From Planctomycetota bacterium (GTDB lineage Bacteria > Planctomycetota > JAMOSO01): 35,582 nucleotides of DNA. The notes beneath the pieces are model-generated. The model was not told the DNA's origin, ran no database searches, and saw only the letters and a list, made by a program, of their open reading frames with translations. Positions 3,086 through 27,321 of this stretch are shown here, one piece after another. The position numbers were made by a program, and so were the translations under genes. The stretch covers positions 1 through 35,582 of the forward strand of contig JAMOSO010000040.1 of assembly GCA_027063065.1 (NCBI GenBank). Direction: 5' to 3'. How positions within the stretch are numbered: the first letter of the stretch is position 1; each line of letters starts with the position of its first letter.

Positions 3086-5104
3086 TTATAAATTAATTAA
3101 CAATTCTAATTGTTTTTCAAATTTACTTGTAAATGTTTTTGTATCACAAATGCTAGATTGTTTAAAGCGATTTCTTAAATCAATACCAGAGTTGCGAATA
3201 TAATCTAAATCAGCCACCTTAGCTTTTAATTTTACAATAAAATCATCTTTATCAGAGCATATACAATCTGACATTTGCATTGCGGTTAATAAGCTAGAAC
3301 CAACCCTACTAGCATGAGTGTTTCCCTGTACACTAATAACAGGTGTACCCATATATAATGCTTCACACGTGGTGGTAGTTCCGTTGTAAGGATATGTGTC
3401 AATTGCTATGTCTATTTTATTATAATAGTCTAAGCCGTTATATATTCCATCTTGCCAACCTACACACTTAACACGGCTGATATCTATACCTTTATTTTGC
3501 ATTCTATTTAAAAATTGTTTTACTAACCACTGACTTTTAAAAGCTTTTGATTTTAATAATAATGTTGAATCAGGCACAGTATTTAACGCATTTGCAAATA
3601 AATCAAGACTATCATCACCCATTTTTGTAGAGTTATTAAAACAACCTAAAACAACTTTACCTGTTAAAGGTTCTATATTGGGAGGGTTTTCTGCAGGCGT
3701 ATAAGATATAAAAGGTGAGTTTAATTTGATTAATTTTTCTGTATAGACATCATCGCTATTAATATCGGTTATATCATCAACAAAGCGATAATCCATGGCT
3801 GTATTAGCAGAAGTTCCAGGAAAGCCTAAATAATTTATTTGGATAGGTGCAATGCGCTTGGCAAATACTGCTTGACGATTACCTTTTGTATGCCCTGCTA
3901 AATCAAAAGCAAAATCTAATTTTAAATCTCTAGATACTTCAACTAATTCTAAATCGCTTAAATGTATAGAATCTATCCAAACATTTGCATTTTTTTTAAT
4001 AATATCGGTTACTTCATCTATGTCTTGCGTATTTGAAAAACAAATAATTTCAAATTTTTCTTTATTGAGATGGTTTAATAAACCCAATATAAAATATGCA
4101 ACTGAATGTATTTTAAAATCACCAGAAAAGAAACCTATTTTAATTTTTTTACGTTTTGATTTTTTCTTATTTGGTTTATAGTTAAAATCATCACAATTTT
4201 CTTTAAATATTTCTCTACCAACAAGACTTAGCTGTTTATATTTTTCATCATCATAATTATGAGATAAATATAAAATTTCTGAGCCAATATTTTTAGAGTT
4301 TGATTTACAATCCAATGCCTTATTTAACCAATTGTACACCATCTTATGATCACCAAGTAAATTATATATATGACTAATAGCCAACATCAATTTGATATTA
4401 TTCACATCAAAAGTTAATCCCTGCTGTGCCATTTCCATAGCTTTTTCATAGTTAAATAACGACAAATAACAATTTGTGATATTTAAATAACATATTGGAT
4501 TTTGAGATTCAATTTCAATGGCTTGTTTTAGATATTGTAACGCTTGCTCTTCTTTGTGTTGCTTTATTAAAACATTACCTAAATTATTTAGAGCTTGAAC
4601 GCTTGGTTTAATTGCAATGGCTTTTAAAAAGGCTTCTTCAGCTAATAAATTTTCATTAGTTTTAGTATAAATATTACCTAAATTAAAATGAACACCTGGA
4701 TTTTCTGGTCTTAATTTAACACATTTTTTGTAGCACTCTTTTGCTTTTGCAAATCTACCGCTGTCTTCGGCAACTAAACCTAATCCATTGATGGCTTTAA
4801 AAAAATTTGGTTGTAACCTATGAGCTTTAACATATAGGCGATAGGCCGCTTTATTATCACCAGAACTACGCAAAACACTGGCGTAATTGCATAAAATATC
4901 ATGATTGTTTGGACTTCTAAAATGGGCTTTTTCTAAATGCATTAATGAAGAGCTAATATTATTTAATGTAAAATAAATAACTCCCATTAAATGGTTAGCA
5001 TCCACAGATGATGGATTAATTTCTAATTCTTTTTTTAATAATTCTTGTGCAGTCGTCAAATCACCTGCCGTATACACTCGTAATGCTTCTTCTATATTAG
5101 ACAT
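3086..5104 (-). CDS. TPR-GT41 protein glycosyltransferase (third of operon)
   Basis: A 672-residue protein: about seven TPR repeats (residues 1-270), a short linker, a basic segment near 310-322, then a GT41 catalytic domain (about 318-672). GT41 enzymes (O-GlcNAc transferase, SPINDLY) transfer a nucleotide-sugar to Ser/Thr of proteins; the TPR superhelix selects the substrate. H333 in SGDFKIH and K494 in NNSTKMG match the conserved catalytic/donor residues, and PYNGTTTTCEAL follows near 572-583. Its core motif is LGFPGTSANTAMDY, closer to classical bacterial SPINDLY-family proteins than the YPNTTG shared by the other five GT41 domains here, so it is the outlier. The ATG overlaps the preceding gene's end by 8 nt and has an AGAG site upstream. 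Donor and target are unknown. Confidence 0.9.
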   Translation of the reverse strand: MSNIEEALRVYTAGDLTTAQELLKKELEINPSSVDANHLMGVIYFTLNNISSSLMHLEKAHFRSPNNHDILCNYASVLRSSGDNKAAYRLYVKAHRLQPNFFKAINGLGLVAEDSGRFAKAKECYKKCVKLRPENPGVHFNLGNIYTKTNENLLAEEAFLKAIAIKPSVQALNNLGNVLIKQHKEEQALQYLKQAIEIESQNPICYLNITNCYLSLFNYEKAMEMAQQGLTFDVNNIKLMLAISHIYNLLGDHKMVYNWLNKALDCKSNSKNIGSEILYLSHNYDDEKYKQLSLVGREIFKENCDDFNYKPNKKKSKRKKIKIGFFSGDFKIHSVAYFILGLLNHLNKEKFEIICFSNTQDIDEVTDIIKKNANVWIDSIHLSDLELVEVSRDLKLDFAFDLAGHTKGNRQAVFAKRIAPIQINYLGFPGTSANTAMDYRFVDDITDINSDDVYTEKLIKLNSPFISYTPAENPPNIEPLTGKVVLGCFNNSTKMGDDSLDLFANALNTVPDSTLLLKSKAFKSQWLVKQFLNRMQNKGIDISRVKCVGWQDGIYNGLDYYNKIDIAIDTYPYNGTTTTCEALYMGTPVISVQGNTHASRVGSSLLTAMQMSDCICSDKDDFIVKLKAKVADLDYIRNSGIDLRNRFKQSSICDTKTFTSKFEKQLELLINL

Positions 5105-7004
5105 AAGTTTCTCTAATTAAATTAATAAAATTTTGTGAAAATTGCTTCTCGTCGCATAATGTTGATTGTAACATTTGTTGACGCATTTGCATTTTATATT
5201 TTGTATTGATTTTATCTTTAGAACAAGCCAAATCTACAGCACGGTTTATATATTCACTAGTGTTGTTACAAATGAATTCTGGCAAACCAACTGCTTGCAA
5301 AATAGTTGCCCCTACCCTATTGGCGTGGACATTGCCACATATTGATAAACTTGGTACTCCCATCGCTAATGCTTCACAGGTTGTTGTTGTTCCATTATAT
5401 GGCCAAGTATCTAAAGCTAAATTTATCTGATTATAACTTAAAAGATGATCGTTTAACGTTTTAGTAGGCGATAATAATACAATAGATGATTTTTCTACTC
5501 CATATTGTGTAAATTTATTTAATAAGTTTTGTTTATATTTTAACGATTTGCAAGCCCAATTTTTAATAATCAAACGCGCATTAGTACATAGTTTTAAAAT
5601 CTCTGACCAAACTTTAACAACCTCATCAGTTATTTTTAACGCATTATTAAACGAACCAAAATTAAAAACATCTTCATTTGTACATTGTATATCTGGTAAA
5701 TTTTCATACGGTCTAAAACATAAAAAACAATTAGGGAGTTTAATTAATTTTTCTACACTCAAGCTATTTTTAGTATCAGAAATATCATCTACAATTCTAT
5801 AATCAATTGCAGATAAACCAGTTGTATTTGGATATGCCAAATATGTATATTGTTTTTTGGCAGGACGCATAGCCATAACACCTAGCCTTGATACACCAGT
5901 ATGTCCCGAAATATCAATTAGTACATCTAAATTATCGGCATAAATTCTATTAGCTAATTGGTGTTGATTCATATTGGCACAATTACACCAATAATGCGTT
6001 GCTTTTTTATGTTTTAATGTGTAAGTATCAACAATGTTATTTGTATAATAAGTATATATTTCAAATTCATTATTTACATTAGCTATTGACCTCAATCCTT
6101 CAAAAAGTGGCAAAGTAAAAAAACTGCAAGAATGCCGTCTAAAATCAGCTCCCATAAAACCTATTTTTAAAATTTTATTGTCGATAAATTTAAAATTTGG
6201 ATTAATTTTAGGTGCTATAAGATTGGCTTGCTTATGCAAATCAAAAACATCAGATGGGTTGTTATTAAAATAATTTTGTAATAATAAAAACGGTGAATAA
6301 GTACCTAATGTTAGTTGAATATTTTTTGCTCGCACAGCATATTTTAAAGCCTGATGTAAATCACCCATATCCATAGATATTTCAGTTAATGATATTAAAC
6401 TTTCTACCATAGTATTATCTAACGATAATGCTTGATTAAAATTTTTAATAGCTTCGTCTAATTTATGTTGTGCTTTTGCTAAAATGCCAAGATTATGTAA
6501 AGCTGACGCTTTAGTATCAGCATAGCAACACGCTTTTTTAAAATCCAGATACGCCAATGAAATTTTATCTTGTTGACGATATAATTCTCCGCGATTTAAA
6601 TAAGCCCACGCAAAATGATCATCTAAAAATATTGCCTTACTAAAGTATTTTAAGGCTTTATTTACTTTATTTAAATCGTTATATGCATTAGCTAAATTAT
6701 AAAAACCTGGAGCCCACTTTGGCGCTAATTTAATTATTTTTAAATAAATTGGTAGTGCTTTTGACATACCATCAATATTGGCTATTACATTTGCAACATC
6801 ACTTAATAATAAATAATTAACATTTGGCATATCTAGCAATTTATAAGCATTTTTTTTAGCTAAAGCATAATTATTTTGTTCACTAGCAAGTTTTATTAAT
6901 AAATGTATATTTTCAAGTCGCTCTGGTTCACGTTGCAATAATGCTATTGCACCTCTTATCCTGCCTTCATTTATTAATTGGGTAATTTCTGATGATATTG
7001 GCAT
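5097..7004 (-). CDS. TPR-GT41 protein glycosyltransferase (second of operon)
   Basis: A 635-residue protein with about six TPRs (residues 1-235) and a GT41 domain (about 277-635). Key residues are visible: H291 in GADFRRH, the lysine in FNNALKIT and PYNGTTTTCEAL. One variation is YLAYPNTTG where most relatives have WLGYPNTTG. I prefer ATG 7004, two bases after the previous gene's TAA, over a TTG at 7019 inside that gene; neither has a strong ribosome binding site, so translation is probably coupled. TPR and catalytic parts align closely with the gene just upstream (for example NLANAY and WAYLNRG in both), marking a tandem duplication. The donor sugar and targets cannot be inferred. Confidence 0.9.
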   Translation of the reverse strand: MPISSEITQLINEGRIRGAIALLQREPERLENIHLLIKLASEQNNYALAKKNAYKLLDMPNVNYLLLSDVANVIANIDGMSKALPIYLKIIKLAPKWAPGFYNLANAYNDLNKVNKALKYFSKAIFLDDHFAWAYLNRGELYRQQDKISLAYLDFKKACCYADTKASALHNLGILAKAQHKLDEAIKNFNQALSLDNTMVESLISLTEISMDMGDLHQALKYAVRAKNIQLTLGTYSPFLLLQNYFNNNPSDVFDLHKQANLIAPKINPNFKFIDNKILKIGFMGADFRRHSCSFFTLPLFEGLRSIANVNNEFEIYTYYTNNIVDTYTLKHKKATHYWCNCANMNQHQLANRIYADNLDVLIDISGHTGVSRLGVMAMRPAKKQYTYLAYPNTTGLSAIDYRIVDDISDTKNSLSVEKLIKLPNCFLCFRPYENLPDIQCTNEDVFNFGSFNNALKITDEVVKVWSEILKLCTNARLIIKNWACKSLKYKQNLLNKFTQYGVEKSSIVLLSPTKTLNDHLLSYNQINLALDTWPYNGTTTTCEALAMGVPSLSICGNVHANRVGATILQAVGLPEFICNNTSEYINRAVDLACSKDKINTKYKMQMRQQMLQSTLCDEKQFSQNFINLIRETYV

Positions 7005-7006
7005 TA

Positions 7007-9118
7007 TTACTTTACGCAAGCCACACAGTGCTTTAAAAAATCATCAGCAAATTGTTTTTCATTGCAAAGACTTGAGTTTGCCATTTTGTCACGCAATTTA
7101 TTACGAATTGTAGATAAATAATCTTGTCGATTATAATATTCAATAGCCTTATTAATATAGTCATTAAGATTGTCGGCAATAAATTCGTTTAAACCAATAC
7201 TATTTAAAATAGAGGCACTAACCCTGCCTGCATGGCGGTTACCATAAAAACATAAAGTTGGAACGCCCATCCAAATTGCTTCGCAAGTTGTGGTTGTGCC
7301 ATTATATATAAAAGTATCCAATGCTAAATCTACTTCAGCATAAATATTTAAATGTGATTCAATATCAATAGTTCTATTTTTAAAAATAAGCCGTTGCTTA
7401 TCAATCCCAAAGTTTGCAAAATTATTTATAATTCTCTGACGATAGTCCATTGATTCGCAAGCAGAATTTTTTAACAATAATGACGCATTGGGACATAAAT
7501 TTAATATTTTAGCCCAAGCTTGTATAACATCATCGCCTATCTTTAATGAATTATTAAAAGAACCAAAATAAAAATTAGATTTCTGTCTTAACTTAATATC
7601 TGGTGCTACACTAGGCGGTCGATAACATAAAAATATATTGGGCATATATAATAATTTTTCAGAATAAAAATTTTGGGCATCGGATGTTTCAGAAACTTTA
7701 TCTGTAATTCTATAATCAATTTGATTTATACCAGTAGTGTTTGGATAACCAAGCCAAGTCATTTGTACTTTAGCAGGTCGGTACGCAAAGACTCTCAGTC
7801 TATTGCCACCTGTTAAACCAGACAAATCAATAAGGCAATCAATTTTATCATTAGCAATAATTTGTGCTAATGCTTCATCATTTAAACTATCACACTGACG
7901 CCAAACATCAGCAGTATTTTTGATGTTGTGGGTTATTTGATCATCTATTATATTGTTACTGTATAAGTAAAGTTTGCAAATATCTTTGTCTAAATTTTCA
8001 AATAATGGCAAAGAAAAATAACTACACGAATGTGAACAAAAATCAGCCGATATAAATCCTAAATGTAATTTTTTGTTTTTATTAATTGTAAGATGTAAAG
8101 GCTTAATATCCCTCAACCAATAATTGATTTGCAAAGTTTTATTAAACAATTGCATAGAAGAATATTTAGAATCATAATTTAAATTCATAATCATAGCACA
8201 AAAAATTTCTAATCTTTTGTCTAATTCAAATGCCTTGTTAAAATTTATATTTGCAAGATTTTGTTCGCCTAATTTAGTGGCAATATCTGCTAAGCCTAAA
8301 TATGCCCCGCAAATATTAGCAGATATCTTTAAACAAGTTTTAAAATATTTTATAGCCTTATCATATATACGCGAATCTAAATACAATGTTGCTAATGCCA
8401 TCAAATATCTAATATTATTAGGTTCTAGTTGCACGGCATTTAATAAATGTTGTTCTGCAGCTGCTAAATTGTTTTGTCTAATTAATATCCCAGCAATACT
8501 AAACCACGCAATAGCCCGTTTAGGATATAAATCTAAGGCTTCTCGATAATAAGCTAATGCCAATTGCCAGTTTTCTTGTGCTTGAGCTAACTCTCCCATC
8601 GCTAAAATTGATTCCCATTTTATATCTGAAAAGCTCATTGCTGTTTTAAAATCTATCTCTGCCAGTTGATACTTGCCAGCAGATTTATATGCCTGCCCAC
8701 GGTTAAGATATGCCCAATAAAAATCTTTATCCAATTGTATTGCTATATTGTAATGTTTAATAGCATTATCAATATTATTTGTATACGCATTAGCTAAATT
8801 GTAATGTCCAATAGCCCAATCTGGTTTAATTTGTACAACTTTTTGATAAATAGATACAGCTTGTTTATTATATGCTTTAGATAATAAAAAATTGCCAACA
8901 TCGGTATAAAAACCTATGTCTTTTATGTTAGCATCATCATATTTAATACAATAATCTAAAACTTCTTTTGTTTTACCTAAGTCCATACATAAAATACACG
9001 CCAATTTCTGCATATCACAGGATTTGAAATCTGGATGATTGCGCAATATTCCAAGTGCGGCACGTTGGCGGCCTTGTTGTCGCATCTGTGCAATACGCTC
9101 AGCAAGGCTCTCTGACAT
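7007..9118 (-). CDS. TPR-GT41 protein glycosyltransferase (first of operon)
   Basis: A 703-residue cytoplasmic protein with about eight TPRs (residues 1-305), a linker and a GT41 domain (about 348-703). H363 in SADFCSH, the lysine in FNNSLKIG and IYNGTTTTCEAI are conserved. The usual glycine-histidine of the DLSGH motif is DLSGL here; human OGT has Tyr at this place, so activity need not be lost. The ATG overlaps the stop of pyrC in a TAATG junction, with GGAG about ten bases upstream, so it should be co-translated with pyrC. It is a close paralogue of the next gene. Soluble protein-modifying enzyme by family; the sugar donor is not shown by anything in the window. Confidence 0.9.
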   Translation of the reverse strand: MSESLAERIAQMRQQGRQRAALGILRNHPDFKSCDMQKLACILCMDLGKTKEVLDYCIKYDDANIKDIGFYTDVGNFLLSKAYNKQAVSIYQKVVQIKPDWAIGHYNLANAYTNNIDNAIKHYNIAIQLDKDFYWAYLNRGQAYKSAGKYQLAEIDFKTAMSFSDIKWESILAMGELAQAQENWQLALAYYREALDLYPKRAIAWFSIAGILIRQNNLAAAEQHLLNAVQLEPNNIRYLMALATLYLDSRIYDKAIKYFKTCLKISANICGAYLGLADIATKLGEQNLANINFNKAFELDKRLEIFCAMIMNLNYDSKYSSMQLFNKTLQINYWLRDIKPLHLTINKNKKLHLGFISADFCSHSCSYFSLPLFENLDKDICKLYLYSNNIIDDQITHNIKNTADVWRQCDSLNDEALAQIIANDKIDCLIDLSGLTGGNRLRVFAYRPAKVQMTWLGYPNTTGINQIDYRITDKVSETSDAQNFYSEKLLYMPNIFLCYRPPSVAPDIKLRQKSNFYFGSFNNSLKIGDDVIQAWAKILNLCPNASLLLKNSACESMDYRQRIINNFANFGIDKQRLIFKNRTIDIESHLNIYAEVDLALDTFIYNGTTTTCEAIWMGVPTLCFYGNRHAGRVSASILNSIGLNEFIADNLNDYINKAIEYYNRQDYLSTIRNKLRDKMANSSLCNEKQFADDFLKHCVACVK

Positions 9119-10113
9119 TAAACATAGCTCCAGTTTATTGTGTTGCCTGCCATAAATGGTACAACATCAGAATATTGATTGGGAATTATAAAATCTTTCT
9201 TCTCAAGGGTTATTTCTTTATTTAATAATTTAAAACCATAATTTTTAACGGCATTATCACTAATAAAAGCCTGTAAATTTTGTAGAGAATTGTTTTTATC
9301 AAATATGTCAACTAAATATGCCAAGGCAATAGGTGCAGAAAAAACCCCAGCTGCACAACCACAACATTCTTTACTAGAGCGCGGATGAGGTGCAGAATCT
9401 GACCCAAACATTAATTTAGGGTGTGCACTTAAAGCAGCATTTAATAAAGCATCTCTATCTTCTGGACGTTTAGCTATTGGTTTACAAAATAAATGTGGGT
9501 TAAATAAGCCTCCTGCTACATCGTCTAAAGTAATAGATAAATGTTGTAATGTTACAGTTGCCAATAAATTTTCATATCTATCCAATAATTCTAAAGCTTT
9601 TGCTGTTGTGATATGTTCCATACTAATTTTTAATTTTGGATATTTTTTAGCTAGATGCTCGTATACTGGCAAAAAGTTTTTTTCTCTATCCAATACAAAA
9701 TCATCGGCTTGCTCACCGTGAACTAATAATGGTATTTGTAATTCTTCCATTATTTTAAAAGTAGTTTCTGCTTCATCCAAGTTATCTACTCCACTATCAC
9801 TATTAGTAGTAGCACCTTGTGGATATAATTTAATACCAAAAATTTTATCTTTGGCTTTTATTAATTCTGCTTCAGAATAATTGCGAAAAAACAAACTCAT
9901 CATCGGTGTCATATTATCAAATTTAAAGCTTTTGATTATGTCCTGTTTATAAATATCAAGAGCATCTAAATCTGCAATCGCAGGAACAGTATTAGGCATA
10001 ATTACAGCATTGGCAAAATATTTTGCACTTAAATGAGCAATATTATTTAACATATCACCTTGACGTAAGTGCAAATGCATATCTACTGGTGATTTTAAGG
10101 TTATTTTATTCAC
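9118..10113 (-). CDS. pyrC: Dihydroorotase, class II (PyrC type)
   Basis: A 331-residue enzyme that cyclises N-carbamoyl-L-aspartate to L-dihydroorotate in pyrimidine synthesis, of the short E. coli PyrC type. The binuclear metal site is intact: H13 and H15 in DMHLHLR, the carbamylated K95 in [17 protein letters not shown]132 in VHGEQ, H167 in MEHIT and D239 in GSDSAPH. The start is GTG with a GGAG site six bases upstream. It is the first gene of the run that continues into three glycosyltransferases and a hydrolase. The coupling to GT genes is odd, since pyrimidine genes usually sit alone or with each other; UMP synthesis does feed UDP-sugar pools, but a functional link is only inferred. Confidence 0.95.
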
Positions 10114-10130
10114 AGTTTCTCCAAGATAAA

Positions 10131-10182
10131 GCTTAATTTAAGCAACTTTTATTTTATATAAGCATATCATATAGACTATGAT
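10131..10182. promoter_or_regulatory. Divergent intergenic region with two inverted repeats
   Basis: The 92-base gap between pyrC (-) and the export cassette (+) contains GCTTAA-T-TTAAGC (10131-10143) and ATCATA-N5-TATGAT (10166-10182). Either could bind a regulator of one or both operons. In AT-rich DNA such short repeats arise by chance, so this is a weak call. Confidence 0.3.
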
Positions 10183-10193
10183 TTCCAAGTGTT

Positions 10194-10199
10194 TATAAT
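10194..10199 (+). promoter_or_regulatory. Candidate -10 element of a leaderless promoter
   Basis: TATAAT ends six bases before the ATG at 10206, placing the expected transcription start at or next to the start codon. No ribosome binding site is present between them, so the mRNA is probably leaderless. The -35 region is poor. Confidence 0.5.
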
Positions 10200-10205
10200 A
10201 ACAAA

Positions 10206-11075
10206 ATGAATAGCAAACCAAGACAATTTAATGCTCGTAAAATCATAATAATTTTTATGTTTTCTGTGCCGTGCTTTTTTGTTTTAGCAATAGCAGGTCT
10301 GTATTTTATTGTTATGGAAGAACACATCCAAAGCCATGGTATGGTTGTTTTGCAAAATCAAAAAAAGATTTTTTCGCCAGAAGATGGTATTATTAGCAGT
10401 TTAAATAATTGTTATAAAATAGATATTAATCGCCCATTAATAGTTATAACCAATCGATATTTATCTAATAAGTTTAATGAGTATTCTAATCAACTAAAAA
10501 ATTATCAGATACAATTAAAAATAGCTAAACTTTCTTTAAAATCGTATCTAAATAAAAAGCAGATTAAAAATAATATAGATATACAAAAACAAAATTTAAA
10601 GATATCTCAATTAAAAAATAATGTAGCATTTACTAGACAATTACAAAATAATATTTTTAATCGCATTCAAAAATTAAGTATTAACTGTCCAAAAAATATT
10701 ATATCACTATCAAAATTAAATATAGGTCAAAAAATTAAACAAGGTGATTTAATAGGTATTTGCGGTAATAAAACAGTTGTAAACATTATTATTGAAGTTA
10801 ATCAAAAATATATTAATAAAATTAAAATAGGTCAACGGATTAGATTTAAATCGAATACTTTTTCAGTTAATAAAAGCTTTAATAATTATTATACTGGTAT
10901 TATTAAAAGTATTGATAATATTGCTAGTATTAATAAAGACAAAAAAATAATTTACCGAGTAACTGCCGATATTGATTTTAATAAAAATTTACCAAACTTG
11001 CCAATAGGCTCTAGCGGTACCGCTTATATTATAATTGGACAACGCTCATTATTGTTGCAATTAATTGGCTACTAA
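10206..11075 (+). CDS. HlyD-like membrane-fusion protein (short)
   Basis: A 289-residue periplasmic adaptor anchored by one N-terminal membrane segment (residues about 12-36). Next come a first half of a lipoyl/barrel-sandwich fold (about 52-84, with FSPEDGIIS), a Lys/Asn/Gln-rich coiled coil (about 85-155), the second half (about 165-195, with IGQKIKQGDLIG) and a beta-barrel region to the end. Such proteins bridge an ABC exporter to the outer membrane. It is shorter than typical type I secretion adaptors (over 400 residues), mainly in the coiled coil. Its TAA is directly followed by the ATG of the first ABC gene. No outer-membrane channel gene is nearby. Sequence similarity is structural rather than strong, so the family call is moderately sure. 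Confidence 0.7.
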   Translation: MNSKPRQFNARKIIIIFMFSVPCFFVLAIAGLYFIVMEEHIQSHGMVVLQNQKKIFSPEDGIISSLNNCYKIDINRPLIVITNRYLSNKFNEYSNQLKNYQIQLKIAKLSLKSYLNKKQIKNNIDIQKQNLKISQLKNNVAFTRQLQNNIFNRIQKLSINCPKNIISLSKLNIGQKIKQGDLIGICGNKTVVNIIIEVNQKYINKIKIGQRIRFKSNTFSVNKSFNNYYTGIIKSIDNIASINKDKKIIYRVTADIDFNKNLPNLPIGSSGTAYIIIGQRSLLLQLIGY

Positions 11076-12803
11076 ATGAAATTACTATTGCAGTTGGGAA
11101 AGTTAGTTCCCAATATTAAATCTTATCTTATATTTTTTATTATTAGTTTATTATTAGTTGGTTTAATCAATATACCTGCACCATTTTTATTTGCATCTAT
11201 TATAGATAACGCTCTTCCCAAACATAATCAATCTTTATTAGTTATTTTAGTTTCTGGATTATTATTAGTTGAATTATTAAAAAATTTATTAAATTTGGTC
11301 AATGCAACTTTACTGGCAAATATTAGTGAGCAACTGATTGCCACTCTTCGCTCTAAAATGTTTAAACACTATGTAGACTTGCCATTTGCATATTTTTTAG
11401 AAACCCCAAGCGGTAAAATGGTTAATCGCCTTGCCACTGAAACAGAATCTGTTGGCGATTTTTTTCGTAAGACATTATGGGCTGTACCATTGCCTTTTAT
11501 TACTACAATTATGGGTACAACTGTAATGGTTTTTTGGAATTGGAAAATGGCAATATTTGTTTTATTATCTATGCCAGTAACAATTATAGCCACAAAAGGT
11601 CTATCAAAAAGGTTAAGAAACTTACGCCACGATCAACGCAATCAACAGGAATCATTTCAAGGTGCAGTTACCGAAGCTATGGATAACATAAGAGTTATTA
11701 AAGGTTTTGCACGCGAAGAAATTTTTAATAATGAATTAGGTCAAGAAGCTCAAAAATTTGCCGATTTTAATCTGCATAGTCATTTTTTAAGTTCTTGTTT
11801 ACGCTCTTCAACTACAGTAATTCAATTGGCAGCAAAATATATATTTATTATTTTTGGAGCATATCTAGTAATACATAAAGATATAACATTGGGTGATTTT
11901 TTTGCATTTAAATTTTTTCAAGAAATTATAGAACCAGAAATAAATACCTTATTTGAATATTTTGCAGAATTACCAATGCAAACTGTCTCTATAAAACGCG
12001 CCATGCAAATATTGGAATATAATATAGAATCTGGCTTAGATAAAGGTCAAACTCTTAAACATGCAAAAGGTGATATTAAATTTGAAAATATAAATTTAAT
12101 TTATCCAGATGGAACTAAAGCCCTTACAGATATAAATTTTTACATAAAAGCTGGCGAAACAATCGCAATTATCGGCCCGTCTGGCTCTGGCAAAAGTTCT
12201 ATCGCATCATTACTGCTTGGGATTTATAAACCAACATCTGGTAAAATATGGATTAATAATTATGATTTATCCACATTAGAATTACGTTCTTTACGCAAGC
12301 ATATAGGGATTATATATCAAGATGCAGAGTTGTTTAATCGTAGCGTCAGAGATAATTTAAAACTTGCAAATACAGAGGCAAGTGACACAGAAATATGGCA
12401 AGCACTAGAGATGGCCTCGGCTATGGATTTTGTTAAACAATTACCCATGGGACTAAATAGTATCATTGGCAATAAAGGTGTTAAATTGTCCGGTGGTCAA
12501 AAACAACGTTTGACTATAGCCCGCACAATTTTAAAAAATCCAGATGTTTTAATTTTAGACGAGGCAACTAGCGCACTGGATTCGATAAGCGAAAAAGCAA
12601 TTCAAAATGCTATGCAATTAATAAGTAAAAATAAGACAAGTATAATAATAGCTCATAGGTTATCTACCATATCACATGCCGATAAAATAATAGTATTGGA
12701 TAAATCTAAAATAGTGCAAATTGGTAATCATCAAGATTTATTAAAACAAGATGGTTTATATAAAAAATTATATTCATCGCAAATGGACGGATTTAATGAG
12801 TAA
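11076..12803 (+). CDS. ABC exporter half-transporter (membrane + ATPase), first
   Basis: A 575-residue fused exporter: about six membrane segments in residues 15-310, then a nucleotide-binding domain (about 335-575). Walker A is GPSGSGKSS (K373), the Q-loop region is YQDAELF, the signature is LSGGQKQR (471-478), Walker B is VLILDE with catalytic E496, and the H-loop is in IIAHRLST. There is no C39 peptidase domain, so it does not process a leader peptide. It probably forms a heterodimer with the next gene's product and works with the upstream adaptor. The substrate (lipid, peptide or other) is unknown. The start ATG abuts the previous stop. Confidence 0.92.
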   Translation: MKLLLQLGKLVPNIKSYLIFFIISLLLVGLINIPAPFLFASIIDNALPKHNQSLLVILVSGLLLVELLKNLLNLVNATLLANISEQLIATLRSKMFKHYVDLPFAYFLETPSGKMVNRLATETESVGDFFRKTLWAVPLPFITTIMGTTVMVFWNWKMAIFVLLSMPVTIIATKGLSKRLRNLRHDQRNQQESFQGAVTEAMDNIRVIKGFAREEIFNNELGQEAQKFADFNLHSHFLSSCLRSSTTVIQLAAKYIFIIFGAYLVIHKDITLGDFFAFKFFQEIIEPEINTLFEYFAELPMQTVSIKRAMQILEYNIESGLDKGQTLKHAKGDIKFENINLIYPDGTKALTDINFYIKAGETIAIIGPSGSGKSSIASLLLGIYKPTSGKIWINNYDLSTLELRSLRKHIGIIYQDAELFNRSVRDNLKLANTEASDTEIWQALEMASAMDFVKQLPMGLNSIIGNKGVKLSGGQKQRLTIARTILKNPDVLILDEATSALDSISEKAIQNAMQLISKNKTSIIIAHRLSTISHADKIIVLDKSKIVQIGNHQDLLKQDGLYKKLYSSQMDGFNE

Positions 12804-14541
12804 TATAGCAGCTCTTAAAAAAATATTTATGCTAGTTACCAAGCGCCCTTTGGAGTTTTTAATGGCTGCTGGATTGGTAATCGTACTATCTTTAGTAGAG
12901 TTACCTTTACCATTATTTATGGCATTATTAATTGATACTATAATTCCTTCAAATGATACTACTGCTTTGATAACTATTGGAATATTTTTATTTTCAATAC
13001 GTGCTGGAGCATCTGGTTTTCAAGTATTTCAAAATTATTTAGTTGCTAATATGACATCAGCCTTTGCCGCTACAATGCGTCAAAAGATGATTAATAAAAT
13101 GCTTAATTTACCATTTGCTAGATTTATCAATGGCGATGCCAATGGAATGGTCACTAGGTTGACTGTCGATATGGAAAAGGTTGAAAAATTTTCACATGAG
13201 ACAGTTGGTTTTTTGATACGTCCTTGTTTAAGTTTTTTATTTATTTTTACAATTATGTTTGCTTGGAACTCTTTTTTAGCAATGTATTGTTTATTGATAG
13301 TGCCGATAGTTGTTTTTACTACAAAAAGTATTCGTATGAATTTACGTGAAAGCTCTGAACGTCAACGTTGTATTACAGAAGATTTAGAAATAAACGCTGC
13401 CGAAGTTTTTAATTCTATACGCAATATTAAAGCTTTTAATGCACAAAATATTTTTAGCGAAAGAATAGATAAAAATATTAATACTATCAAAAAAGCTGGC
13501 GTTAAATATCAAATTTGGGCTCAACTTTCTAATGAAATAATTAAATTATTGGGAACACTATCTTCTATTGGTTTTATATTTTTTGCAGCTCAGCAGGTAT
13601 TTGATAATAACTTAACTTTGGGAGGATTTATTGCGCTACAAACGATGTCTCAAAGTATACGGTCGCCTATTGCTCAGATAATGTATTTTTTTACTACTAT
13701 GAATTCTAAAAAAGTTGCATTAGAACGTGTGGAATCAGTTATGAATGAGCTACCTGAACAGGCAGAAGATAATTTAAGCACACTTGATTTGCCACTTAAA
13801 GATGGAATTAAGTTTAAAAATGTAATTTTAAATTTTAATAATAACATTAATGTTTTAAATGGAATTAATTTAAATATTAAGCCAAATCAAACTGTGGCTA
13901 TAGTGGGCCCTTCTGGCGCTGGCAAAAGTTCACTTATTAATGTTCTGTTAGGATTACATAAATATACTCAAGGCAGTATAGAATATGACCATCAAGATAT
14001 GCAACAACTAGATATTAAAAATGTACGTGCAAATATTGGAGTGGTCTATCAAGACGCAATATTATTTAACAATACTATTCGTTACAATATGAGTGTTGGC
14101 AATAAGTTTTATAGTGATACAAAAATTATCAACGCACTTAAAACTGCCAATGCTTGGGATTTTGTAAGTAAGTTGCCAAATAAATTAGATACTATTATAG
14201 GTGTAAATGGTATTAAATTATCTGGCGGACAAAAACAGCGCTTATCAATTGCTAGAGCAATTTTAGCAGAGCCTGCTATTTTGATTTTAGATGAAGCCAC
14301 AAGTTCTTTGGATTCTCATAGTGAAAATTTAATTAAAATAGCGCTCGATAAAATACTAAAACAACGCACCTCAATAGTAATTGCACATAGATTATCTACC
14401 ATATTGAATGCCGATCGTATATTAGTTATGGAGCAAGGTAAAATAATTGCAGAAGGAACTCACAATCAATTAATCAAAAAATGCAGTGGGCTTTACTATC
14501 ACTTATATACAACACAAACAGATGGATTATTAAAGGCTTAA
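12796..14541 (+). CDS. ABC exporter half-transporter (membrane + ATPase), second
   Basis: A 581-residue fused ABC exporter paralogous to the gene before it. The membrane domain spans about residues 15-305 and the ATPase domain about 340-581, with Walker A GPSGAGKSS (K377), YQDAILF, LSGGQKQR, Walker B ILILDE and IVIAHRLST. Both halves keep the catalytic glutamate, unlike many heterodimeric exporters in which one site is degenerate. I place the start at ATG 12796, which overlaps the previous stop by 8 bases and follows a GGACGG site; a longer frame extends upstream from 12751 inside the previous gene. The stop abuts the convergent regulator's stop with no gap and no terminator. Confidence 0.92.
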   Translation: MSNIAALKKIFMLVTKRPLEFLMAAGLVIVLSLVELPLPLFMALLIDTIIPSNDTTALITIGIFLFSIRAGASGFQVFQNYLVANMTSAFAATMRQKMINKMLNLPFARFINGDANGMVTRLTVDMEKVEKFSHETVGFLIRPCLSFLFIFTIMFAWNSFLAMYCLLIVPIVVFTTKSIRMNLRESSERQRCITEDLEINAAEVFNSIRNIKAFNAQNIFSERIDKNINTIKKAGVKYQIWAQLSNEIIKLLGTLSSIGFIFFAAQQVFDNNLTLGGFIALQTMSQSIRSPIAQIMYFFTTMNSKKVALERVESVMNELPEQAEDNLSTLDLPLKDGIKFKNVILNFNNNINVLNGINLNIKPNQTVAIVGPSGAGKSSLINVLLGLHKYTQGSIEYDHQDMQQLDIKNVRANIGVVYQDAILFNNTIRYNMSVGNKFYSDTKIINALKTANAWDFVSKLPNKLDTIIGVNGIKLSGGQKQRLSIARAILAEPAILILDEATSSLDSHSENLIKIALDKILKQRTSIVIAHRLSTILNADRILVMEQGKIIAEGTHNQLIKKCSGLYYHLYTTQTDGLLKA

Positions 14542-14967: not shown

Positions 14968-14983
14968 AAAATCCCCATATCAT

Positions 14984-15033: not shown

Positions 15034-15098
15034 TAAAAAGGCTATTTTTTGATGATATGTTCTTCAAAAATATACGTACTACTACCCATTGATATAAA

Positions 15099-16243: not shown

Positions 16244-16260
16244 ATTATTTCTCACTCAAA

Positions 16261-16911: not shown

Positions 16912-16985
16912 ATTTTTCCTTATCAATAATTAAAATAATCATTATTTATACACTAATTTACAGAAGTGTCTATAGATTAACTTAT

Positions 16986-16999
16986 AATTCTATAGAATT
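16986..16999. promoter_or_regulatory. 14-bp perfect palindrome upstream of the KDPG operon
   Basis: AATTCTATAGAATT is a perfect palindrome about 75 bases upstream of the aldolase start, in the gap after the HAD gene. A dimeric sugar-responsive regulator is a possible ligand. No regulator gene of that type is adjacent. Confidence 0.4.
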
Positions 17000-17061
17000 G
17001 TAATAACCAAAAACTTTATCCAGATTTAAAACTAAGTTCAAATATTATATAAATATTTTAA

Positions 17062-17661
17062 TTATAAAACATTCATATCTATTAGTGCCTCACGGCATTG
17101 CATAGGATTTTTAAATACAATGCCCTGCATTCCCAATAGTTTGGCTGAATCTATATTAATTTTAGTATCATCAATAAATACAGATTCATCAGGATTAATG
17201 CCATATCTATCAAAAAGCACTTTAAAAATAGCTTTATCTGGTTTTAGTAAATGCTCTTGTGCAGAATATACAATACCATCAAATTTATGCCAAAAATTAT
17301 CACGACTTAGATAATGATTCATTAAATATTTGGGCATATTTGATAAAACATACAATTTATAACCTAATTTTTTAACATCTTCTAATATTTTAACACTATC
17401 GTCGATAGGCTTTAAATGATTGCGTAATGCTTGCATAAATAGCTTAATATCTGCAATTGATTTACCAGTTCTATTGGCAAAATCAATAATTGCCTTATCT
17501 TCCTCTTGTAATCCAGCATCTAATTGTAACCATTGTGGATGCCCTATAATTTGCTTATATAATTGTTTAGACTGCTTAGGAAATACACTTTCTAATAATT
17601 GGTACGGTTGCCAATTTAACAAGACCGCACCAATATCAAATACTACATTTTTAATAGCCAT
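17062..17661 (-). CDS. HAD-superfamily phosphatase (YihX-like)
   Basis: A 199-residue hydrolase with the four HAD motifs: D9 in VVFDIGAV, VLSNMP, a lysine in KPDKAIF and FIDDTKIN. The DxG form of motif I, rather than DxD, is that of the YihX/HAD-IA group of sugar phosphatases. The small helical cap lies between motifs I and II. Its ATG overlaps the stop of parC in a TAATG junction, so it is the third gene of the parE-parC unit. The substrate is unknown; glucose-1-phosphate is one precedent in the family. Confidence 0.85.
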   Translation of the reverse strand: MAIKNVVFDIGAVLLNWQPYQLLESVFPKQSKQLYKQIIGHPQWLQLDAGLQEEDKAIIDFANRTGKSIADIKLFMQALRNHLKPIDDSVKILEDVKKLGYKLYVLSNMPKYLMNHYLSRDNFWHKFDGIVYSAQEHLLKPDKAIFKVLFDRYGINPDESVFIDDTKINIDSAKLLGMQGIVFKNPMQCREALIDMNVL

Positions 17662-21403: not shown

Positions 21404-21540
21404 TGATATCCTTTTTAATCAAATTACTGTCCAAGCGAGTAGCTTTTTATATTTTGAATGGCAATGTTGTACCTGATAAATGACTTTAAAACAAGAGCAT
21501 TGTTCGCTATTATAAGCAATTCAAATTTTAAGGAGATAAT

Positions 21541-22008
21541 ATGGCCAATAGAAATGCAATTTTTACAACAAATTTGGGTACTTTCACAATAGAACTTTTT
21601 GAAGATAAAGCACCTGCAACTACAAAAAACTTTATTGATTTGGTGGAAAAAGGTTATTATGACGAATTGATTTTTCACCGCATCATAGATGGTTTTATGA
21701 TTCAAGGTGGTTGTCCAGATGGTACTGGAATGGGCGGTCCAGGATATCAAATTGATTGTGAATTTCATGATGATCTAAAACACTCAGACGAAGGCATTTT
21801 GTCTATGGCAAATGCGGGACCAAATACAGGTGGAAGTCAATTTTTTATCACTTTAGGAGCTACGCCTCACTTAGATGGTCGTCATGCTGTTTTTGGTAAA
21901 GTAATAGATGGAATGCAAGTCGTTCGTGAAATTGGCTCTGTACAAACAGGAATCTCAGATCGTCCTGTAAAAGATGTAATTATAGAAACTATCACTATTA
22001 GCGAATAA
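21541..22008 (+). CDS. Cyclophilin-type peptidyl-prolyl cis-trans isomerase
   Basis: A 155-residue cytoplasmic cyclophilin that speeds proline isomerisation during folding. The active-site signature [13 protein letters not shown] holds the catalytic arginine, and [16 protein letters not shown] and [12 protein letters not shown] complete the pocket. There is no signal peptide, so it is the PpiB-like cytoplasmic type. An AAGGAG site precedes the ATG. Only six bases separate it from the giant triple glycosyltransferase gene, which lacks its own ribosome binding site. The two are therefore likely co-transcribed and coupled; a folding helper for the giant protein is an attractive inference. Confidence 0.95.
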
Positions 22009-22014
22009 GTATTT

Positions 22015-25000
22015 GTGCAAAAGCACATTAATAAATTATTAAAAAACGGTGATTACACCCAAGCAGAAAAAAAATTATCTGTATATATAAAACAGAATCC
22101 TTTATCTGCTTGGGGTTTACATCTGCTTGGTCAGTTATACGCTCAGACTGGTCGGCAAAGAGAAGCTATTTCATTATTAGAAACGGCAGTAAAAATTCAG
22201 CCAAGCGCACAACATTTAGCTAGTTTAGGAATATGTCTATACCTAAATCAAAAATATTTTAAGTCAATTAAAGTATTTAATAAAGCACTACAAAAAAAGC
22301 AAGATTCTGATATTTTTAATAATCGCGGTATGTGTTTTGCCGCATTATGCAAATATAAACCTGCTTTGAGATCTTATAATTTTGCTTTAAAATACAATCC
22401 AAATAATTTAGATGCTTTGTATAATTCTGCAAAAGCCTGTGATATTTTAGGTCATTACCAACAGGCAATAGATACATATCAACGCATTATCAATTCAGAT
22501 TTAAAAAATACAAATAATCCCAATTATTATAAAGCACACAACAATTTAGCTGTTCAATTAGAGGCGATGGGATATAGCGCCGAGGCATTAAACCATTATC
22601 GAACAGCTCTAAAAATCAATCCATACGAATTTACCAGTCGCAGTAATTTTTTATTAAGTTTAAATCGACCTGATAATATCTCACAAGCTGAAATATTAAA
22701 AGAATCACTAATCTTTAATGAATTAACCCACAAAAATAATTTTAAATTGAATAATGATAAAAATAAAAAATTAAAAGTTGGCTTTGTATCTGGAGATTTT
22801 ACTAAGCACGTAGTAGCTAATTTTTTCTTACCATTAATAGAAAATCTAAAACCTGATGATATGGAAATATATTGCTATTATAATTTATCAACTAGCACAG
22901 GCTACACAACACATATAGCTAAATTATGCAAACAGTTTCATCACATCGCACATCTTAATACCGAAGAGCTTGTTGCATTTATACGCACACATAACTTAGA
23001 TGTTATTTTTGATTTAAGTGGACATGCAAATTATAATCGCTTGCCCGCTTTTGCCCAACGCCTTGCGCCTATTCAAATAAACTGGTTGGGATATCCAAAT
23101 ACAACTGGTGTAAAAAATATGGACTACAGATTAGTTGATGCAATAACTGATCCCATAGAAAACAACAAAGATTGTACAGAAACCTTATTGCGTTTAGAGC
23201 CTTGTTTTTTATGCTATAGACCATTAGAAACTACTCCACAGATACAACATCAATTACAAAAACATATACGCTTTGGTTCTTTTTTAAACTCTGAAAAAAT
23301 AAATAATACAACAGTTAAACTTTGGTCAGATATTTTAAAATCCGTTCCCAATTCAAAACTTATTTTAAAATCAATGAGATTTGATAGGCCTGGATTAATT
23401 AATCGTTTACAAAATATGTTTGTATCAAATGGTATTGATAAAATACGTCTTGAATTTTTAGAAAGATCATCTAGCGCACAAGAACATCTTCAAGCATATA
23501 AACATATTGATATTGCCCTGGACACAATGCCATATAATGGCACAACTACAACATGTGAAGCCTTATATATGGGTATACCTGTTATTGCATTATTGGGAAA
23601 TGTTCACCGTAGTAGAGTTAGTGCCTCTATATTAAATGCTATTGCTCATCCAGAGTTAATTGCAAAAACTACACAAGAATATATTTATATAGCCCGTGAT
23701 TTAGCCAATGACAAAAACCGTTTAAATCAGTTACATAATAACTTGCGACAAGATTTATTAGATAGTCAATTATGTGATGCAAAAGCATTTGCAAAAAACT
23801 TTACCCATTTATTGCAACAATTTCAATCCACACCAATTTTAAATCACTTTAAAATTGGTACACAATTATATATGCAAGGCAATTACCAAGATGCTATGCA
23901 AGCATTTGATTTAGCCTTACAAAAAAATTCTCAGGATATTAATAGCTTAAATAATCGTGGTTTAACATTTGAGGCTCTGGGCAAATATCGCAATGCATTA
24001 AGCTCGTATAGAATGGCATTAAAAATAAACCCAAACTTTTTAGATGCTAAATATAATCTTGCACGAAGTCTTGAACAACTTAGGCGATTTGACGAATCTA
24101 TGCAAACATATCAAGATATAATCAAAACCAATCCAAACTACGCTGTTGCGCATAACGATTTAGCCAGACTATTTGAGTCAATTGGCAAACATAAAAAAGC
24201 ATTTAAACATTACAAACAAGCAATTAAATTAGACTCTAATAATCATCTCTATAAAAGTAATTTATTACTTAGCAGTAATTGGAGTGATTTGATTTCACAA
24301 TCAGAAATTTTACAATTAACTAAAAAATTAGCTCCACAATCAAAAGCTAAAAAAATAAAAACTGTTGTAGATATCTTAAAACCAATCAAAATTGGTTTTG
24401 TGTCTGGAGATTTCACATTTCATGCAGTGGCGATTTTTTTTATGCCACTATTAGAAAATTTAGACAAATCAAAGATTCAAGCATATTGCTATTACAATTA
24501 TAATAAAATCAATGACTATACAAAAATCATTGCAAATGCGTCCTACGAATTTAAACAAATTGATAGTCTTAGTGATGATGAGGCCATAAATTTAATAAGA
24601 AACGACAAGTTAGATATTATTTTTGATTTAAGTGGCTACACTAGCTTTAATCGTTTAAATCTTTTTGCTAAGCGTCTTGCTCCTATTCAAATCAACTGGT
24701 TGGGATATCCCAATACTACGGGTCTAAAAACTATCGACTACAGATTAATTGATTATATTACAGATCCACTTGAGCATAATAACCACTGTTCTGAAAAATT
24801 ATTAAGAATGCCATCTTGCTTTTTGACATACCAACCTAAATATGACTTCCCTGATATCGAATACACAAAAAGTGATCATATACGCTTTGGATGTTTTTCA
24901 AATTCACAAAAAATCAATCCAACAACTGTTCGTTTATGGGTTGCTGTTTTAAAAGCTGTTGATAATTCTAAACTATATTTAAAATCTATTTGGTTTGATA

Positions 25001-27318
25001 GGCCTGAAATTGTTAATTATTTAAAAGAATTATTTTTGGCAGAGAATCTTGATGAAACAAGGCTTATAATATTATCGCGTTCCAAATCAAGCTTTGAACA
25101 TTTACAGATGTATAATCAAATAGATATTGCCTTAGATACTATCCCCTACAATGGAACAACTACTACCTGTGAAGCTTTGTATATGGGAGTGCCGGTTATT
25201 GCTTTATTAGGAAATGTTCACCGTGCTAGAGTTAGTGCGTCTTTGGTTTCAGCATGCAATCATCCAGAACTAATTGCTAAAACTACAAGTGAATATATAA
25301 ACATTGCTAAAAATCTTGCTAATAATCAAAGCCTATTACAAAAATTACATAACAATTTACGCAATGACGTAAATAATTCTGCCTTAGGAAACGCTAAAAC
25401 ATTTGCCGGAGATTGGTCAAAACTGATGCTATCTTTAGTAGTAAAAAAAGATAAGCCTGTGCAACTAAATCAAATAGAAAATTTATTACGTAACAATAAA
25501 CTAGAGCAAGCCATTACCCAATTACAAACTTATCTTGCTTATAATCCAAATGATGCCAAACAATTTAAAAACTTAGGTGTTGCCTTGCACCTTACTAGAC
25601 AATTTAACTTAGCGGTTGATGCCTTTAAAAAAGCTCTTAGTATCAACCCAAATGACTATGACGCCAAACGCAAACTAGGTTTAAGCCTAGATGATTTAGG
25701 CAGACACAGAGCGGCCATAAGTTGTTACAATCAAGTAATAGATTCTTTAAAAAACAAATCAAATAATTTAACACAAGAAGATAAAATAATATTAGCAGAT
25801 GCATTTTTTAGTTTAGCATCAACTTATCAACAACTGGATAAAACAGATTTAAGTATAGAAATGTACTTAAATAGTCTTAAAATTAATTGTCAACAATTTC
25901 ATGTTCATAATAATTTAGCCACCTATTACCATAGTAATGGTCAGTACAAATTAGCATTAAAGCATTTTAAGCAAGCTATAAAAATACAACCTGAAAATTC
26001 AAATTTATATAATAATCTAGCTATGACTTACCAAGCTTTAATGCAAACCAGTAAAGCAAAAGAGTTATATTTAAAAGCTATTAAACAAGACATAGATAAT
26101 CCTAATTTATATTCTGGAATCTTATTATTACTAACCAGACTTGATGATATAAAGCCAAATGAAATTTTTGATTTAAGCAAGCAATATAACAATGCTGCCA
26201 TTAAGCAAATGCAAAAATATCCCTTGGCAAATTTTGCTAAACAAAAACGTAGTGACAATAAACTGCGTATCGGCTTTATATCACCAGATTTTAAAACCCA
26301 TTCGGTAACATATTTTTTAACTTCATTTTTAAAATATCTTCCACTGCATAATGTCGAGGTTTATTGTTATTACTGTGATACTAAAAATGATGTTGTAACC
26401 CAAGAAATTGCTAAATCAGTGAAAAAGTTTTATTTTGTAGCTAAAAACACCGAAAGAGAAATAGTAAATTTAGCTCGGCAAGATTTATTAGATATCGCCA
26501 TAGACCTTGCTGGGCATACGGGCAATAATATTTTATCAGCATTTGCATACCGTATGGCTCCTATACAATGTTCGTGGTTGGGATATCCAAATACAACAGG
26601 GCTCAATACAATGGATTATCGCATTATTGATAGTTATTCTGATATAGATACAAATATAGATATGTATAGTGAAACCCTAATAGCATTACCCAAACATTTT
26701 TTATGTTACCAACCACCTAAAGCTACTATAGATATAAACTGGCAATTAAATCAAACTATCAGATTTGGCTCTTTTAATAATATTGAAAAAATCACCCCCA
26801 CCTGTATTAAACTATGGAGTGATATATTAAAGGCAATACCAAATTCCACATTGACACTTAAAGCCAAACAAACCTCATCACCAGATGTAGTACAATGGAT
26901 ATATACCCAATTTAATCAATATGATATCAAAAAAAATCGTATAATTTGTTTAGCCGTTGCCAAAAACAATAGCCAACATTTAAATTGTTATAATTCAATA
27001 GATATAGCTTTGGATACATTTCCATACCATGGCACCACAACCACTATAGAGGCACTATACATGGGTGTACCCACAATAAGTTTAATTGGTAATACCCATG
27101 CGTCTAGGGTTGGTTATTCGATACTTTCTGGTGTTGATTTACAAAATTTATGTGCTAAAAATAAGCAAGAATATATAAATATTGCCACTGACTTGGCAAA
27201 TAACCAAGATGTGTTACAAAATTTGCATAAAACATTACGTCAAACGTTATTGGCAAGTGACTTATGCAATGGTCAAGATTTTGCTGAGGATTTTGCTAAA
27301 ACACTTAATTCAATGTCT
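22015..27318 (+). repeat. Three-fold internal module duplication in the giant gene
   Basis: Repeat units at about 22015-23820, 23821-25440 and 25441-27318 each encode one TPR array plus one GT41 domain. Units 1 and 2 share long near-identical stretches around the GTTTT loop and are the younger duplication; unit 3 is more distant. Confidence 0.85.
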
Positions 27319-27321
27319 TGA
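22015..27321 (+). CDS. Giant protein with three TPR-GT41 glycosyltransferase modules
   Basis: A 1768-residue cytoplasmic protein made of three complete modules: TPRs about 1-225 with GT41 252-602; TPRs about 608-755 with GT41 783-1142; TPRs about 1150-1390 with GT41 1416-1768. Each catalytic domain keeps the DFxxH histidine (H265, H803, H1429), the donor-site lysine (K428, K966, K1592), LGYPNTTG and a GTTTT loop (PYNGTTTTCEAL twice, PYHGTTTTIEAL in module 3). Modules 1 and 2 are the most alike, with YMGxPVIALLGNVHR in both. GT41 enzymes glycosylate Ser/Thr of proteins; GTTTT resembles plant SPINDLY, so GDP-fucose as well as UDP-GlcNAc is a possible donor. Start is GTG six bases after the cyclophilin stop with no clear ribosome binding site. 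Known relatives have one catalytic domain, so this fusion is unusual. Confidence 0.92.
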   Translation: MQKHINKLLKNGDYTQAEKKLSVYIKQNPLSAWGLHLLGQLYAQTGRQREAISLLETAVKIQPSAQHLASLGICLYLNQKYFKSIKVFNKALQKKQDSDIFNNRGMCFAALCKYKPALRSYNFALKYNPNNLDALYNSAKACDILGHYQQAIDTYQRIINSDLKNTNNPNYYKAHNNLAVQLEAMGYSAEALNHYRTALKINPYEFTSRSNFLLSLNRPDNISQAEILKESLIFNELTHKNNFKLNNDKNKKLKVGFVSGDFTKHVVANFFLPLIENLKPDDMEIYCYYNLSTSTGYTTHIAKLCKQFHHIAHLNTEELVAFIRTHNLDVIFDLSGHANYNRLPAFAQRLAPIQINWLGYPNTTGVKNMDYRLVDAITDPIENNKDCTETLLRLEPCFLCYRPLETTPQIQHQLQKHIRFGSFLNSEKINNTTVKLWSDILKSVPNSKLILKSMRFDRPGLINRLQNMFVSNGIDKIRLEFLERSSSAQEHLQAYKHIDIALDTMPYNGTTTTCEALYMGIPVIALLGNVHRSRVSASILNAIAHPELIAKTTQEYIYIARDLANDKNRLNQLHNNLRQDLLDSQLCDAKAFAKNFTHLLQQFQSTPILNHFKIGTQLYMQGNYQDAMQAFDLALQKNSQDINSLNNRGLTFEALGKYRNALSSYRMALKINPNFLDAKYNLARSLEQLRRFDESMQTYQDIIKTNPNYAVAHNDLARLFESIGKHKKAFKHYKQAIKLDSNNHLYKSNLLLSSNWSDLISQSEILQLTKKLAPQSKAKKIKTVVDILKPIKIGFVSGDFTFHAVAIFFMPLLENLDKSKIQAYCYYNYNKINDYTKIIANASYEFKQIDSLSDDEAINLIRNDKLDIIFDLSGYTSFNRLNLFAKRLAPIQINWLGYPNTTGLKTIDYRLIDYITDPLEHNNHCSEKLLRMPSCFLTYQPKYDFPDIEYTKSDHIRFGCFSNSQKINPTTVRLWVAVLKAVDNSKLYLKSIWFDRPEIVNYLKELFLAENLDETRLIILSRSKSSFEHLQMYNQIDIALDTIPYNGTTTTCEALYMGVPVIALLGNVHRARVSASLVSACNHPELIAKTTSEYINIAKNLANNQSLLQKLHNNLRNDVNNSALGNAKTFAGDWSKLMLSLVVKKDKPVQLNQIENLLRNNKLEQAITQLQTYLAYNPNDAKQFKNLGVALHLTRQFNLAVDAFKKALSINPNDYDAKRKLGLSLDDLGRHRAAISCYNQVIDSLKNKSNNLTQEDKIILADAFFSLASTYQQLDKTDLSIEMYLNSLKINCQQFHVHNNLATYYHSNGQYKLALKHFKQAIKIQPENSNLYNNLAMTYQALMQTSKAKELYLKAIKQDIDNPNLYSGILLLLTRLDDIKPNEIFDLSKQYNNAAIKQMQKYPLANFAKQKRSDNKLRIGFISPDFKTHSVTYFLTSFLKYLPLHNVEVYCYYCDTKNDVVTQEIAKSVKKFYFVAKNTEREIVNLARQDLLDIAIDLAGHTGNNILSAFAYRMAPIQCSWLGYPNTTGLNTMDYRIIDSYSDIDTNIDMYSETLIALPKHFLCYQPPKATIDINWQLNQTIRFGSFNNIEKITPTCIKLWSDILKAIPNSTLTLKAKQTSSPDVVQWIYTQFNQYDIKKNRIICLAVAKNNSQHLNCYNSIDIALDTFPYHGTTTTIEALYMGVPTISLIGNTHASRVGYSILSGVDLQNLCAKNKQEYINIATDLANNQDVLQNLHKTLRQTLLASDLCNGQDFAEDFAKTLNSMS

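Follow-up and report, generated by a model that had tools for sequence, protein, structure and literature searches.

Six SPINDLY-like GT41 domains of a Planctomycetota genome as candidate cytosolic O-glycosyltransferases, with a GDP-sugar as the likeliest donor

Introduction

Which sugar do the GT41 enzymes clustered in this Planctomycetota genome transfer, and to which proteins? The stretch of DNA analysed here, the window, is 35,582 nucleotides long, and a first-pass annotation made from its letters had noted six GT41 catalytic domains in about 25 kb, suggesting that their donor may be GDP-fucose or another sugar instead of UDP-GlcNAc, and that so many paralogues form a large protein glycosylation system. 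The suggestion rested on a short motif shared with plant SPINDLY (SPY), a nucleocytoplasmic protein O-fucosyltransferase. Bacterial SPINDLY-like GT41 proteins are usually annotated as O-GlcNAc transferases, and in the literature searched we found none with a proven donor.

Results

Six catalytic domains in four genes

Translation and Pfam confirm the six GT41 catalytic domains, which span 24.2 kb and are carried by four intact genes, not six. The motif is likewise as described: GTTTTCEA in five domains and GTTTTIEA in one, at the place where human O-GlcNAc transferase (OGT) has GHTTG and SPY has GTTTTCE. Three tandem single-domain genes lie on the reverse strand and one gene of 1768 aa, with three modules, on the forward strand; TPR repeats precede the catalytic domains in all four. 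With PF13844 (cut-off 25 bits) the four genes score 118 to 513 bits, which makes them members of GT41, and the six PF13844 half-domain stretches of the 1768-aa gene correspond to three catalytic domains. The features are as follows.

2349-3077, reverse strand: esterase-like alpha/beta hydrolase of the BD-FAE family, the next gene downstream of the GT41 trio
3086-5104, reverse strand: TPR-GT41 gene, 672 aa; catalytic domain about 3092-4177, GTTTT at aa 575 (3368-3382)
5097-7019, reverse strand: TPR-GT41 gene, 640 aa, likely ATG start at 7004; catalytic domain about 5100-6194, GTTTT at aa 543 (5379-5393)
7007-9118, reverse strand: TPR-GT41 gene, 703 aa; catalytic domain about 7010-8095, GTTTT at aa 607 (7286-7300)
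9118-10113, reverse strand: pyrC-like dihydroorotase gene (named from sequence), directly upstream of the GT41 trio and overlapping it
22015-27321, forward strand: 1768-aa gene of three successive TPR-GT41 modules (translation, Pfam)
22744-23829, forward strand: catalytic domain of module 1, K-A-Y triad as in SPY, V in place of S496; GTTTT at aa 509 (23539-23553)
24355-25443, forward strand: catalytic domain of module 2, K-M-Y; GTTTT at aa 1047 (25153-25167)
26224-27318, forward strand: catalytic domain of module 3, K-C-Y; GTTTT at aa 1673 (27031-27045, the GTTTTIEA form)

Behind pyrC the genes of the trio overlap or stand a few bases apart, the start of 7007-9118 overlapping the pyrC stop, and the esterase-like gene comes 8 bases further on. 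A peptidyl-prolyl isomerase gene ends 6 bases before the start of the triple-module gene. Given this spacing, both GT41 groups look like parts of operons shared with unrelated housekeeping genes. pyrC apparently belongs to the same operon as the trio and has no part in its glycosylation function, and the esterase-like gene is possibly a co-transcribed accessory gene. Between the two GT41 groups, at 10206-14541, the window encodes an HlyD-like protein and two MsbA-like ABC half-transporters; we rejected this HlyD-ABC-ABC exporter as a GT41 partner, since the similar-looking matches at other loci are generic ATPase domains. The segment 34880-35582 (reverse strand) reads as pieces of a xylose isomerase with no open reading frame of at least 90 aa, and is probably a decayed copy. 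No flagellin or other obvious acceptor gene is present within the window.

Tree and sequence relatives

From 79 named loci with similar domains and from loci of the same phylum, 159 GT41 domains were extracted, and a tree was built on 89 domains, including those of the window, SPY, human OGT and TtOGT. Human OGT falls in a clade of nine rows (support 99/97), whose bacterial members mostly have arginine at the place of SPY residue 731. All six window domains lie outside this clade, on the SPY side; a split of 59 rows (89/85) holds SPY together with the six and leaves out TtOGT. This 89-domain tree gives no supported branching place for SPY among the bacterial sequences.

The best solved relative by sequence is Arabidopsis SPY, with 292 bits for the whole gene 7007-9118. 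When the catalytic domain of module 1 is the query, SPY scores 225 bits, TtOGT 187, human OGT 134-136 and XcOGT about 130. Under the model of HMW1C-type N-glucosyltransferases (NF049992), for which 1000 bits are required, the three single genes reach 22 to 41 and fall outside that family; for the triple gene 25 families were listed, and this model is not one of them. GTTTT occurs in 111 of the 159 domains, a sample enriched by a pattern that itself contains GTTTT. A large bacterial GT41 clade normally has this form; its presence here is not due to chance, nor is it distinctive.

The donor pocket

In SPY, K689, A731 and Y744, as against L866, R904 and C917 in human OGT, set donor specificity, and mutants changed at K689, K665, E752, Y744, V497 or I592 lose activity (PMC10027727). 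All six window domains keep K689, K665, Y744, E752, T747 and T748. Other positions vary: V497 is V in four domains and C in two (7007-9118 and 5097-7019), I592 is L in all six, a state shared with most of the bacterial relatives, modules 1 and 2 no longer have S496, and the guanine-reading backbone segment (SPY 721-723) shows no sequence conservation. At position 731 modules 1, 2 and 3 have A, M and C, 7007-9118 has I, 5097-7019 S and 3086-5104 Y; R never occurs there. The last of these genes, where H728 is also replaced by G, has the most divergent pocket of the set. The SPY specificity triad is thus incomplete, with K and Y in six of six domains and A in one; since A731 is kept only in module 1, we file the domains as SPY-like, not as SPY. 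None of the six has the OGT triad, and they do not qualify as O-GlcNAc transferases of the OGT/SEC type. Given K689 in the absence of the uridine-binding arginine, together with Y744, which suits a small sugar lacking a 2-N-acetyl group, a GDP-sugar is the most likely donor; judged by its residues, the pocket would favour guanine over uridine and a sugar devoid of that group.

Module 1 with its TPRs was modelled at a pLDDT of 91.8. The model superposes on SPY, including the GDP-fucose complex, with Z 46.6-49.3 over 586-594 residues and an rmsd of 2.6-2.9, and so the donor pocket is not lost. Against TtOGT the Z score is 46.4 over 506 residues, against XcOGT 41.5, and against human OGT about 33 to 33.5 with an rmsd near 7; the intervening domain of human OGT is missing from the model. 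Neither a place among proven UDP-GlcNAc enzymes nor a lost pocket, the two outcomes that the first-pass annotation had named as fatal to its donor reading, was therefore observed.

Donor supply in the genome and the phylum

The genome (2.13 Mb in 71 contigs, 90% complete) encodes GDP-mannose 4,6-dehydratase (Gmd; 581.6 bits, cut-off 415) and, on a different contig, a homologue of GDP-L-fucose synthase (Fcl) that at 491.2 bits stands just under the cut-off of 500 and has no competing family. With both genes present, GDP-fucose is probably available. ManC was not found with two models (TIGR01479, PF00483); four PF00483 matches were rejected as ManC, being by sequence RfbA-like, a cytidylyltransferase, a nucleotidyltransferase-kinase fusion and GalU-like. 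At 90% completeness the missing ManC is weak evidence. The fucose salvage enzyme FKP was likewise not found in the genome.

Among 391 genomes of the phylum, Fcl, counted at an E value of 1e-80 or better, occurs in 12 of 51 GT41-positive and 46 of 340 GT41-negative genomes (odds ratio 1.97, p=0.088, in a test that ignores kinship among genomes), a weak co-occurrence. Three genomes (G031, G324 and G383) combine copies of the K-x-Y/GTTTT pocket with Gmd and no Fcl, and one that is 97% complete (G294) has a GT41 with the same pocket and neither Gmd nor Fcl. GDP-fucose is therefore no general requirement of the clade, and another GDP-sugar is a serious rival. We rejected GTTTT as sufficient proof of GDP-fucose: it is the usual bacterial form and also occurs without Gmd.

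A lineage-specific expansion

Two more GT41 genes, on contigs C50 and C71, bring the genome to eight domains. The window domains group with these two copies and two outside sequences (93/96); within the group, modules 1 and 2 join at 100/99, all three modules at 100/95, and 7007-9118 with 5097-7019 at 100/100. By this grouping of the genome's own copies, the window set is a lineage-specific expansion of a known bacterial GT41 family. The seventh gene, on C50, and a flagellin gene point away from each other, their starts 172 bases apart (L050, the two genes at 192-2048 and 2221-3684). The eighth, on C71, is a divergent GT41 on a long branch, in which lysine 689 is replaced by serine; 3.4 kb away from it lies a TPR protein with a sulfotransferase-like C-terminus (L051, the two genes at 7299-8936 and 12354-14147), and TPR-sulfotransferases of this kind adjoin GT41 at five other loci (L066, L068, L074, L113 and L131).

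In the phylum sample the host genome (G000) has the most GT41 candidate stretches, 16, followed by G324 with 15 and G093 with 14. At least two GT41 domains occur in 34 of the 79 named loci, and 16 multi-domain GT41 reading frames were found outside the window. We rejected the idea that the triple-module gene is unique: 3 to 5 modules were counted in the examined stretch of six other loci (L079, L083, L090, L097, L128 and L143), and L097 and L128, by their coordinates one Pelobacter contig, make up a chain of six modules and, with it, a seventh domain, all in about 14 kb. The large protein glycosylation system proposed earlier is plausible, but other bacteria, too, commonly have GT41 clusters and genes of several modules.

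Flagellar context of the relatives

Genes for flagellin, FliS, FliD, FlbT or FlaF are present in 19 of the 79 named loci (about 810 kb), which were chosen by GT41 sequence alone and in which about one flagellar locus would be expected (an estimate from usual gene numbers). Flagellin lies nearby in all five Planctomycetota loci with long flanks (L099, L117, L118, L123 and L132). At 4192-12685 of L124, from a Desulfobacteraceae MAG, the order is gmd-like gene, GT41, fliC (flagellin), fliD and fliS, a candidate compact flagellin glycosylation operon. SPINDLY-family GT41 proteins had already been noted in enterobacterial flagellin glycosylation islands (PMC4875605). A TPR-GT41 of 1400 aa from a non-SPY subgroup also follows a flagellin gene (L055, 2571-8888, in G047 and its genus); the flagellar association is therefore not confined to the SPY-like clade.

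In the host genome, flagellin adjoins the C50 copy, not the GT41 copies of the window. On contig C69 (L176, 1-1767) a flagellin gene is cut off by the contig end, beside a sulfotransferase-like gene, and the N-terminus of this fragment seems to be shared with the C50 flagellin. Besides its flagellins, the genome encodes two NeuB-family proteins and two proteins of the Maf type, the usual nonulosonate transferases, so that flagellin is likely to receive nonulosonic acid by a route separate from GT41. The two Maf-type (MptE-like) proteins, with a CMP-sugar synthetase-like gene between them (L173, contig C5, 7316-12362), form a cluster probably devoted to nonulosonic acid glycosylation of flagellin.

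Discussion

The window enzymes are probably cytosolic Ser/Thr glycosyltransferases with a GDP-sugar donor. In the reading to which we incline, with some confidence, the six domains are cytosolic O-glycosyltransferases of the SPY side of GT41 that arose as duplicates in this lineage, a GDP-sugar is their likeliest donor and GDP-fucose the best single candidate. The TPR superhelix before each catalytic domain would bind an extended stretch of the acceptor protein, and the GT-B domain would transfer one sugar from the nucleotide-sugar donor to Ser or Thr. The C50 copy probably modifies flagellin; those of the window probably act on other proteins, be they flagellar, exported or cytosolic, each TPR array with a specificity of its own. 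GDP-sugar use is now better supported than in the first-pass annotation. What we observed are the domains and their intactness, the side of the tree, the residues, the fold, the Gmd and Fcl genes and the flagellar surroundings of relatives; the class of donor, the sugar, the Ser/Thr linkage and the acceptors are inferred. The earlier proposal of a donor other than UDP-GlcNAc gains from the tree, the intact pocket, the model that fits SPY best and the genes for Gmd and Fcl. GTTTT alone, however, does not identify GDP-fucose, the motif being the normal bacterial form and the same pocket occurring without Gmd in G294; the GDP-fucose pathway itself was recovered in part, with Gmd and Fcl and no ManC.

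Which other donors could these pockets hold? A different GDP-sugar, such as GDP-mannose, GDP-rhamnose or another product of the Gmd intermediate, is the rival we take most seriously, unlikely as we judge it. The guanine-reading lysine is invariant and the sugar end variable (S496, V497, I592), several genomes with this pocket lack Fcl and one lacks Gmd, and at L124 and L129 a gmd-like gene stands beside GT41 with no obvious Fcl; against this, the host genome encodes Fcl, and the residues that surround fucose in SPY are mostly kept. It seems improbable that the donor is UDP-GlcNAc or UDP-glucose, as for human OGT and HMW1C, with the SPY-like residues a mark of ancestry. Bacterial GT41 members are often annotated as O-GlcNAc transferases, GlcNAc derivatives were assumed for the enzymes of the flagellin islands (PMC4875605), and XcOGT, which has Y at the 744 place, was reported to add GlcNAc to one plant protein (PMC9715652). 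The same work, however, argues that Y744 blocks GlcNAc and describes little or no O-GlcNAc activity for TtOGT and XcOGT (PMC9715652), and the window domains stand outside the OGT clade, with K not L, never R, and Y not C at the triad positions.

We hardly expect a CMP-nonulosonic acid (pseudaminic or legionaminic) as donor. Caulobacter FlmG, of the same TPR and GT-B plan, uses a pseudaminic donor on flagellin (PMC7591256), and this genome has two NeuB-family genes and flagellins; its two Maf-type proteins speak against the idea, as does a pocket that retains the residues holding a GDP-sugar. Very improbable, too, is that some of the six are inactive TPR scaffolds and only a few modules are active. 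The loss of H728 and the tyrosine at 731 in 3086-5104, and the divergence of the modules at contact positions, would fit such a fate, but catalytic K665, K689, Y744 and E752 are kept in all six, a conservation that would be unexpected in dead copies. A bolder extension, that bacteria possess a widespread SPINDLY-type cytosolic O-fucosylation from which plant SPINDLY descends, in which joined modules serve several sites or acceptors in turn and of which at least eight modules occur here in a 2.1 Mb genome, is conceivable, though we would sooner doubt it than accept it.

The locus offers six natural variants with the catalytic core of SPY, the genes for Gmd and Fcl are present in the same genome, and our survey of other loci links the GT41 family to flagellin operons; a direct test of donor and acceptor is now possible. 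Confirmation of a GDP-sugar would correct how a large family is annotated.

Comparison with known systems

Human OGT shares with the window domains the family GT41 and the TPR superhelix, and differs in its L866/R904/C917 triad, GHTTG, the intervening domain and a separate clade. Caulobacter FlmG, likened here by description, has the same TPR and GT-B plan, is cytosolic and acts on flagellin (PMC7591256), whereas its pseudaminic acid donor departs from the GDP-sugar reading. TtOGT (5DJS) and XcOGT (2JLB) share the compact TPR-GT41 fold and Y at the 744 place; TtOGT lacks K689, has GCTTS and falls outside the split of SPY and the window domains. By annotated family the proteins resemble the bacterial 'SPINDLY family' GT41 enzymes (COG3914), including those of flagellin islands (PMC4875605), a flagellar context found for the relatives and the C50 copy; unlike the island enzymes, the window copies lie among housekeeping genes. 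From Arabidopsis SPY the window domains differ in an identity of about 26-28%, in the missing A731 of five of the six and in having three modules in one chain. Nevertheless SPY is the closest likeness: TPRs and GT41 without an intervening domain, GTTTT, K689, K665, Y744 and E752, and the best match in both sequence and fold.
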